Source: Roseospira navarrensis (GTDB lineage: Bacteria > Pseudomonadota > Alphaproteobacteria > Rhodospirillales > Rhodospirillaceae). From it: a stretch of DNA of 64,000 bases. Under the pieces are notes generated by a model. The model ran no database searches, was not told the origin of the DNA, and saw only the letters and a program-made list of their open reading frames with translations. Made by a program: the position numbers and the translations under genes. The stretch lies in assembly GCF_009601025.1 (NCBI RefSeq), contig NZ_WIVE01000001.1:1-64000 (forward strand). Reading direction: 5' to 3'. Numbering within the stretch: the stretch's first letter is position 1; each line of letters opens with the position of its first letter. This document shows, piece by piece, positions 53,567-55,240 of this stretch.

Positions 53567-54031
53567 CTATCCGCCCCGATGGTACGGGTGGCCGGCCAGG
53601 ATCGCCCAGGCGCGGTAGATCTGCTCGGCCAGCATGGGCCGCACCAGCATGTGCGGCCACGTCATGGCGCCCAGCGACAGGCGCTGATCGGCGCGCGCCA
53701 GCACCTCGGGCGCGTGACCGTCCGCGCCGCCCACCAGGAACGCGACGGTGCGCGCGCCTTCGTCGCGCACGCGGCCCAGGTGCGCGGCCAGGTCCTCGCT
53801 CGACCAGGCCCGGCCGCGCCCGTCCAGCACGATGCAGTGGGCGCCGTCGGGCACCTGTTCGAGCAGGAGACGGCCTTCGCGGGCCATCCGCTCGGGCGGG
53901 GGCAGGGGGCGGCGCTCCTCCACCTCGCGCACGCTCAGCGACCAGCCGCGCAGGCGGGCGGCGTAGGTCTCGAACAGGGCGGCTTCGGGGCTGGTCCGGG
54001 CGCGGCCGACCGCGATCAGCAACAGGTTCAC
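53567..54031 (-). CDS. rlmH: 23S rRNA (pseudouridine1915-N3)-methyltransferase RlmH
   Basis: 154 residues, SPOUT fold. The SAM-binding knot shows as AFLVGGADGH (about 97-106) and the SLGAMTWPHMLVRPMLAEQIYRAW C-terminus is diagnostic. The GTG at 54031 gives the usual N-terminus (VNLLLIAVGRART). Methylates helix 69 of 23S rRNA after pseudouridylation. It follows rsfS by 84 bases in the conserved nadD-rsfS-rlmH order. Confidence 0.92.
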   Translation of the reverse strand: MNLLLIAVGRARTSPEAALFETYAARLRGWSLSVREVEERRPLPPPERMAREGRLLLEQVPDGAHCIVLDGRGRAWSSEDLAAHLGRVRDEGARTVAFLVGGADGHAPEVLARADQRLSLGAMTWPHMLVRPMLAEQIYRAWAILAGHPYHRGG

Positions 54032-54115: not shown

Positions 54116-54529
54116 TCAGGGGCTCGCGGCCATCATCAGCGGCGGCGGCGGGGCCGGCATGCCGGCGAAGGCGCCGGGGCCGGTCCGGGGCACGCCCCAC
54201 ATCTTTTCGAGGTTGTAGAAGGCACGCACTTCCGGTCGGAAGAGGTGCACCACCACGTCGCCGGCGTCGATCAGCACCCAGTCGCACTGGGGCACGCCCT
54301 CGACGGCGGGGCGATAGCCCAGGTCCTTCAGGGCCTCGACCACGTGATCCGCCAGGGCGCCCACATGACGCGCCGACTGCCCGGAGGCGATGACCATGGC
54401 GTCGGCGAAGTCCGTCTTGCCCGCCAGATCGATGCGGACCAGATCCTCGGCCTTGTGATCGGCGAGGCTGGTTTCGACCGTGTCAACGAGACGCGTGGCG
54501 TCCGTCTGGTCGAAGGCTGCGGTAGATAT
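54116..54529 (-). CDS. rsfS: Ribosomal silencing factor RsfS, apparent ATA start codon
   Basis: 137 residues if started at the ATA at 54529-54527. RsfS binds protein uL14 and stops subunit joining in stationary phase. The conserved block AEDLVRIDLAGKTDFADAM VIASG and WVLIDAGDVVVHLF...YNLEKMWG are intact. The frame is open only back to a TGA at 54544-54542. Between that stop and the conserved block there is no ATG, GTG or TTG. AAAGGA lies seven bases before ATA, which would give (M)STAAFDQTDATRL, a natural RsfS beginning. The next ATG (54397) would delete 44 conserved residues. A variant or base error turning ATG to ATA is the main alternative. Confidence 0.8.
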   Translation of the reverse strand: MSTAAFDQTDATRLVDTVETSLADHKAEDLVRIDLAGKTDFADAMVIASGQSARHVGALADHVVEALKDLGYRPAVEGVPQCDWVLIDAGDVVVHLFRPEVRAFYNLEKMWGVPRTGPGAFAGMPAPPPPLMMAASP

Positions 54530-54552
54530 GACGTGTTCCTTTCATGAAATGC

Positions 54553-54595: not shown

Positions 54596-55240
54596 TCAGG
54601 GTCCGCCGGGTCCCCCCGCCGGGTCGGCGCCTGCCCGGATCGCCGAGGCCGAGGCCGCATGCCGCCGGATGGGCAGAAACACCCACGACGGTGCGGCGTC
54701 GTCCGCCAAGCCCGCGGCGGCCCGGACGGGGCGGCGATGCGCCGCGTACCGGCGGGCGGCCCGGACATTGACGGTCCCAAAAGAATATCGCGGCCGGTCG
54801 AACACCGCAACCGGAACGGTTTCCATCAGCTCCACCCAGCCGCGCCAGCGATGGAACTGGGCCAGATTGTCCGCGCCCATCAGCCACACGAACCGCACCC
54901 GGGGAAACCGGGTCTGAAGCGCGCGCACCGTGTCCAGGGTGTAGCGGGTGCCCAGGGCGGACTCGATGCCGGTGGGCACCATGCGCGGATGCCGGGCGAC
55001 GGCCTCGGCGCGGGTCAGCCGCTCGTCCAGGGGCGCCATGGGCTGCCCGGTCTTCAGAGGATTGCCGGGCGAGACCAGCCACCAGACCTGATCCAGGCCC
55101 AGGCGGCGCAGCGCCTCCTGCCCGATGTGGCGGTGCCCCGCGTGCGCCGGGTTGAACGAGCCGCCCAGCAGACCGATGCGGACCCGGCGGCGGTCGCCAT
55201 AGGGGGGCGGGGACAGGAAACGCGGCACGGGACGCGGCAT
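54596..55240 (-). CDS. nadD: Nicotinate-nucleotide adenylyltransferase NadD
   Basis: 214 residues. Makes deamido-NAD from nicotinate mononucleotide and ATP. The nucleotidyltransferase H-x-G-H is in GLLGGSFNPAHAGHRHI (about 23-39), VSPGNPLK and FVWLMGADNLAQFHRW follow, and the last motif is SASAIRAG, a slightly diverged form of I-S-S/A-T-x-I-R. The ATG at 55240 adds about 20 residues before the domain. The gene follows the deacetylase gene by 17 bases. Confidence 0.93.
   Translation of the reverse strand: MPRPVPRFLSPPPYGDRRRVRIGLLGGSFNPAHAGHRHIGQEALRRLGLDQVWWLVSPGNPLKTGQPMAPLDERLTRAEAVARHPRMVPTGIESALGTRYTLDTVRALQTRFPRVRFVWLMGADNLAQFHRWRGWVELMETVPVAVFDRPRYSFGTVNVRAARRYAAHRRPVRAAAGLADDAAPSWVFLPIRRHAASASAIRAGADPAGGPGGP

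Follow-up and report, generated by a model that had tools for sequence, protein, structure and literature searches.

rsfS of Roseospira navarrensis and of its order probably starts at AUA-type codons of the class rejected by IF3

Within the window, the whole stretch of 64,000 nucleotides of Roseospira navarrensis analysed here, sequence comparison gives good support to translation of the ribosome anti-association factor RsfS from AUA (54529-54527, minus strand), with formyl-methionine first and with the aid of a good Shine-Dalgarno (SD) motif. Codons of the same kind, ATA, ATC or ATT, are called at the start of rsfS across the order and at the start of infC, the gene of initiation factor IF3. 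We propose, with a probability of roughly 0.68, that rsfS is a lineage-wide client of the start-codon discrimination exerted by IF3, RsfS being made weakly and together with IF3. The features of the locus are listed below.

54116..54529, minus strand: coding sequence of rsfS, 137 codons plus stop, beginning at ATA and ending with TGA; Pfam RsfS, 106.1 bits.
54527..54529, minus strand: probable ATA start codon of rsfS; sequence read directly, with relatives and the order survey.
54537..54541, minus strand: SD motif AAGGA, seven bases 5' of ATA.
54542..54544, minus strand: TGA closing the rsfS frame upstream, in frame; sequence read directly.
54395..54397, minus strand: first canonical in-frame codon of rsfS, ATG, 44 codons into the gene.
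54596..55198, minus strand: 3' part of nadD, the upstream neighbour of rsfS; TGA stop at 54598-54596.
53567..54031, minus strand: rlmH, the downstream neighbour of rsfS, with a GTG start.
54483..54545, minus strand: 20-codon ATG reading frame lying over the rsfS SD motif and start, in another frame.

A direct reading of the minus strand shows TGA at 54544-54542 closing the rsfS frame, followed by AAG GAA CAC GTC ATA TCT ACC GCA. The motif AAGGA occupies 54541-54537 and ATA follows at 54529-54527, seven bases further. Between the closing TGA and the conserved core, the window contains no in-frame ATG, GTG or TTG, and the earliest in-frame CTG, at 54442, falls within the AEDL block. On each of these points, namely the closing stop, the lack of a usual start ahead of the core and the place of ATA behind the SD motif, the original prediction had read the DNA correctly. 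The gene ends with TGA at 54118-54116.

The product is RsfS: it matches NCBIfam TIGR00090 with 110.9 bits against a cut-off of 56.9, over positions 2-99 of the 99 in the profile, and the Pfam RsfS (PF02410) match in the window's genome (G000) lies at 54197-54475. A gene caller limited to ATG, GTG and TTG would have to begin at ATG 54397-54395, with the loss of 44 residues that include the start of the conserved core. RNA folding over the start revealed nothing unusual in the window or in the same-genus relative G001 (z 0.17 and 0.75).

The upstream neighbour, which we take to be nadD on account of its GGSFNP motif, ends 66 bases before ATA and runs in the same direction. Both neighbours were named by their motifs and by comparing the loci with tblastn, and the gene order nadD-rsfS-rlmH is the one annotated in Sinorhizobium meliloti. 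Such a neighbourhood would allow translational coupling, in which ribosomes terminating on nadD re-initiate at AUA; this is compatible with the other readings and, to our judgement, quite improbable. A gap of 66 bases seems long for re-initiation. Furthermore, in Rhizobium sp. NLR16a and Qingshengfaniella the upstream gene listed is not nadD and lies on the opposite strand, and the Rhizobium rsfS keeps CTG with an SD motif.

We searched five same-genus genomes for rsfS and could read the start in four of them, the contig of the fifth (G005) ending before it. All four have ATA (G001 and G004) or ATC (G002 and G003), none ATG, at the same spot and behind the same motif, GAAAGGA. In the alignment of these four with the window, neither GAAAGGA nor the first two bases of the start codon vary; at the third base, three sequences have A and two have C. 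The start at ATA, predicted from the letters of the window, is thus matched by ATA or ATC in each same-genus relative with a readable start.

With ATA present in G001 and G004 too, a misread base in the window is very unlikely, which indirectly answers the call of the original prediction for a second reading of that base. The window does come from a draft assembly of 197 contigs, and ATA could in principle stand for an ATG that was wrongly sequenced or assembled, or be the mark of a decaying gene. Yet the other assemblies of the genus have ATA or ATC in the same place, the isolates Caenispirillum salinarum AK4 (L117) and Oleispirillum naphthae (L104) have ATA and the isolate Phaeovibrio sulfidiphilus (L110) has ATT, and the protein matches the whole RsfS profile. 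We give error or decay hardly any credence.

For the order-wide survey, RsfS was found in 146 distinct genomes, made up of 58 of 60 relatives and 119 of 120 genomes of the order, with 31 shared. Starts were read in 110 of the 146 genomes, window included, and 105 loci were left after five identical to named loci were moved to the named set. Four rows were dropped: L032 and L033, which repeat L027 and L028, and L035 and L051, whose contigs end before the start. Merging loci with identical start regions reduced their number from 279 to 266. The start was then called by an SD rule. Of the in-frame codons ATG, GTG, TTG, CTG, ATA, ATC and ATT, it takes the one whose SD match is longest, and it demands at least four matching SD bases at working distance.

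Applied to the 105 distinct loci of the order, the SD rule calls ATA in 65, ATT in 19, ATC in 15, TTG in two, ATG in one and GTG in one, with no call in two. ATA, ATC or ATT is called in 99 of the 105 in the true frame, against 9 and 17 in the two wrong frames, and such a start is present in 24 of the 25 families sampled. When the rule is made blind to the codon, it lands on ATA, ATC or ATT in 67 of 105 loci and on ATG, GTG or TTG in none, the former three being about 5% of all codons that were scanned. If every codon under the best SD match is counted, the codon-blind figure is 95 of 105, versus 2 and 9 in the wrong frames. The SD match reaches at least five bases at 81 of the 99 starts, and the aligned spacer is 5-6 at 74 of them. 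Shuffled SD strings land on these starts often as well (mean 50.6, maximum 96 of 105), since purines abound in the upstream tract and shuffling keeps them in the strings; SD strength alone is therefore no proof.

Codon usage was compared within the same genes. ATA accounts for 65 of the 99 starts versus 28 of 659 internal isoleucine codons (Fisher p 4e-46, a value that serves only as a guide since related sequences are not independent). Judged by this usage, ATA in rsfS behaves like a start and not like an isoleucine codon. In addition, G+C shows codon periodicity after the start (0.67/0.42/0.70 at +21 to +60) and none before it (0.63/0.61/0.60 at -60 to -31). The original prediction had described AUA initiation as very rare; this fits bacteria in general, and it does not fit rsfS in this lineage.

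The true start might instead lie elsewhere, either in an upstream frame joined by frameshift or at an internal codon. The window and G001 do have the ATG of the 20-codon frame (54483..54545 in the window) over the SD motif, as the first of these would have it; G002, G003 and G004 lack that ATG. Among the 57 closed-frame loci of the order that have an ATA-type start, an in-frame stop lies 4-15 codons upstream in 43, and the window is without an internal canonical codon ahead of the core; a start elsewhere is accordingly very improbable. Where the frame is closed within 62 codons (58 order loci), 26 have no ATG, GTG or TTG at least 13 codons before the core. The 20-codon frame was also considered as a leader or frameshift donor and was discarded, since three of the five same-genus sequences lack its ATG.

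On a quick tree of the 105 RsfS core proteins, we counted at least 14 changes among ATA, ATC and ATT and 3 to or from anything else, with L279 and L288 entered as "other". None of the 14 third-base changes leads to G, for which the chance is about (2/3)^14 = 0.003 by hand arithmetic if G is equally likely. As far as these sequences tell, ATG is avoided at the rsfS start across the order, as expected under selection against it.

The exceptions are few. Locus L007 has ATG with an SD match of 4, and L013 is unclear, being called GTG. In L279 and L288 the rule calls TTG; 15 codons closer to the core there is also an ATA whose SD match is of the same length. The ATA called in L041 lies unusually far out, 57 codons ahead of the core. 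Finally, L020 and L049 receive no call and have ATG without an SD motif near the usual place. These two come from reduced genomes (1.3-1.4 Mb) in the window's family. In one of them (G014) infC retains ATA (L205) alongside the rsfS ATG, so there is no strict tie between the two codons.

Control genes were read in the same way. In loci of the order, the SD rule calls ATA, ATC or ATT in 6 of 51 rlmH and 6 of 52 nadD, and gives no call in 25 and 29 of them, respectively. Across all groups, a canonical codon lies at most 12 codons upstream of the N-terminal motif of rlmH in 115 of 118 loci; the N-terminus of nadD is variable, with 51 of 129 loci having no canonical codon within 12 codons of the anchor. 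As a further control, rplT was of no use, its motif having matched unrelated frames. The start of rpmI is ATG in all 15 loci in which its motif was found, out of 59 searched, and we set aside as unlikely an initiator tRNA that prefers AUA. In the five genus genomes G000-G004, where the rRNA operon may be missing, neither the 3' end of 16S rRNA nor the anticodon stem of the initiator tRNA was matched by an exact pattern. An SD motif is no matter of course in the class, as it is found at 24.6% of starts in Caulobacter crescentus (PMC4117421).

Starts of infC were read in the best 30 of 58 matching relatives in the order, L189 being cut. Of these 29 readable loci, 22 are called at ATA, six at ATC and one at TTG. 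The best 29 of 140 matching class genomes represent other alphaproteobacterial orders and yield ATA in 17, ATC in six, ATT in one, ATG in one and no call in four. The window's own genome has its infC called at ATA (L186, G000 C182; IARPPMTAPP...). Elsewhere, the reported infC start is ATT in E. coli and ATC in Streptomyces (PMC5472188), ATT in Xanthomonas (PMC5559785) and AUA in S. aureus (PMC13009471).

The original prediction had also likened the weak rsfS start to the control of infC. This idea gains weight because infC itself is called at ATA or ATC in the same order; control of rsfS of this kind would be a further step, taken up below. The start site, its conservation and the codon class that rsfS has in common with infC are shown by comparison, and the AUA-type starts of the two genes suggest that two brakes on ribosome assembly are tuned together.

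Outside the order, starts were read in 90 of 130 matching genomes of other alphaproteobacterial orders. Among these loci, 89 of them distinct, ATA, ATC or ATT is called in 42, CTG in 20 and ATG, GTG or TTG in five, with no call in 22. The named loci are the best 80 of 318, of which 79 were used; in this set members of the order (Magnetospirillum) are mixed with others. Its 72 distinct loci give ATA, ATC or ATT in 34, CTG in 31, ATG in one and no call in six. Among the matches listed, the seven loci whose titles name Caulobacter all have CTG as the call, as do two of the four that name Asticcacaulis.

A search of the phylum, limited to the best 30 of 117 matching genomes, added 28 new loci. Nine of them are alphaproteobacterial, and CTG is called in all nine. 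The other 19, from other classes, have ATG in six, TTG in three, ATC in one (with an ATG closer to the core) and no SD call in nine, each of which has an ATG near the core. In E. coli, rsfS starts with TTG, for which the rule finds no SD match of 4 bases. With this limited sample from outside the class, the weak start of rsfS looks like an alphaproteobacterial trait. RsfS itself had no match in 11 of 143 alphaproteobacterial genomes, seven of which are of at most 1.2 Mb (G163, G170, G198, G211, G229, G258 and G288).

We can now sketch how IF3 might control rsfS. Selection would keep the codon weak, letting its third base shift among A, C and T and hardly ever to G. The most likely reason for this weakness lies in IF3, a factor that rejects 30S initiation complexes formed on any codon but AUG, GUG and UUG. 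As long as free IF3 is plentiful, infC and rsfS would be little translated. Once 30S subunits, whether or not they are mature, build up and sequester IF3, initiation at AUA would be tolerated, and IF3 and RsfS would rise together. With IF3 guarding the 30S and RsfS the 50S subunit against premature joining, both brakes would be renewed. We infer the repression of rsfS by IF3, the joint rise and its benefit; a weak rsfS start would be a simple mechanism by which the two proteins could rise together.

Published work bears on several of these steps. IF3 is reported to repress codons other than ATG, GTG and TTG (PMC5472188). In S. aureus, AUA starts with a good SD motif give about 10% of the output of AUG, and that of ccpN up to 30% in rich medium (PMC13009471); this relatively better use in rich medium is opposite to a simple starvation switch. 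S. aureus RsfS binds uL14 and prevents 50S joining (PMC7125091). In E. coli without RimM, IF3 and RsfS are both raised and hold 30S and 50S apart; deletion of rsfS left the lag of the rimM mutant unshortened, which counts against the mechanism (PMC13246957). Moreover, E. coli rsfS has TTG, a codon counted among those that IF3 accepts (PMC5472188), so a joint rise needs no IF3-rejected codon. Further background is found in PMC8266586, PMC7566282, PMC11497404 and PMC10158994.

The conserved weak codon could also be explained without any sensing. AUA would then merely fix a low and constant level of RsfS, a surplus of the anti-association factor being harmful and the level of IF3 varying too little. 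The Streptomyces sigR gene offers a parallel, since its GTC start keeps the ratio of two proteins (PMC5472188), and the replacement of ATA-type starts by CTG in other orders fits a need for weakness and not for one codon. For such an end a weak SD motif with AUG would do, yet in rsfS it is the codon that is weak, next to the SD matches of at least five bases at 81 of 99 starts; the equal codon class of infC would also have to be a coincidence. A constant low level thus seems to us rather unlikely, while deserving to be taken seriously.

Control of rsfS by IF3, the reading that we prefer, also has a bolder form. In Alphaproteobacteria, rsfS and infC may make up one IF3-sensed circuit, in which RsfS would repress its own AUA and that of infC more than genes with AUG. 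By slowing 50S joining, RsfS would prolong the time that IF3 has for rejecting 30S complexes on weak codons and would in this way limit its own AUA; the feedback would then read the rate of subunit joining. Switches between AUA-type codons and CUG from one order to another would keep rsfS within the IF3-rejected set. We regard this one circuit as a tentative possibility and rather doubt it.

Several known systems resemble the proposed one. The autoregulation of infC shares with it a start of the class rejected by IF3, an SD motif and a product that acts on subunit joining. Unlike IF3, RsfS binds 50S, and so this would be control of a second protein and not simple self-repression. Streptomyces sigR, whose GTC start is repressed by IF3, is likewise a protein kept scarce by a non-canonical start (PMC5472188); it differs in that GTC is two positions off ATG and ATA one, and in that sigR encodes a sigma factor and is reported for Streptomyces. 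In S. aureus, ccpN (AUA) and cvfC1 (AUU) have conserved starts with strong or extended SD motifs that yield about a tenth of the AUG output (PMC13009471). These belong to another phylum and encode no ribosome factors, their products being a transcription repressor and a small protein. The E. coli ortholog of rsfS also has a minor start codon, TTG (also PMC10917681), which, in contrast to ATA, belongs to the three that IF3 accepts.

Control of this kind is already known from infC, sigR and ccpN; what appears to be new is the gene concerned, how widely such a start occurs in it and its pairing with infC. Few bacterial genes with IF3-rejected start codons are described as experimentally characterised (PMC5472188). 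Here, a ribosome anti-association factor would have such a start across an order and, counting CTG, apparently in much of the class. A search of the open-licence literature, covering titles and the beginnings of abstracts among the matches listed, gave no report of a non-canonical rsfS start, and the word rsfS is absent from the main text of an S. meliloti profiling paper (PMC10117765). Single cases may be recorded in the ribosome profiling data set of Caulobacter, in which CTG makes up 0.7% and other near-cognate codons 0.25% of starts (PMC4117421).

A non-canonical start makes it likely that gene callers misplace the beginning of RsfS, as happened to sigR, whose start was misplaced in genome annotation (PMC5472188). 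The records of S. meliloti and Rhizobium sp. are cases in point (L371, about 1375-1500, and L373, about 1378-1440). In both, rsfS is annotated from an upstream ATG without a clear SD motif. Downstream and in frame, the two share GGAAAGG, seven bases and then CTG ACA ACA. From this arrangement, the SD-linked CTG is more likely to be the start of rsfS in S. meliloti and Rhizobium than the annotated ATG.
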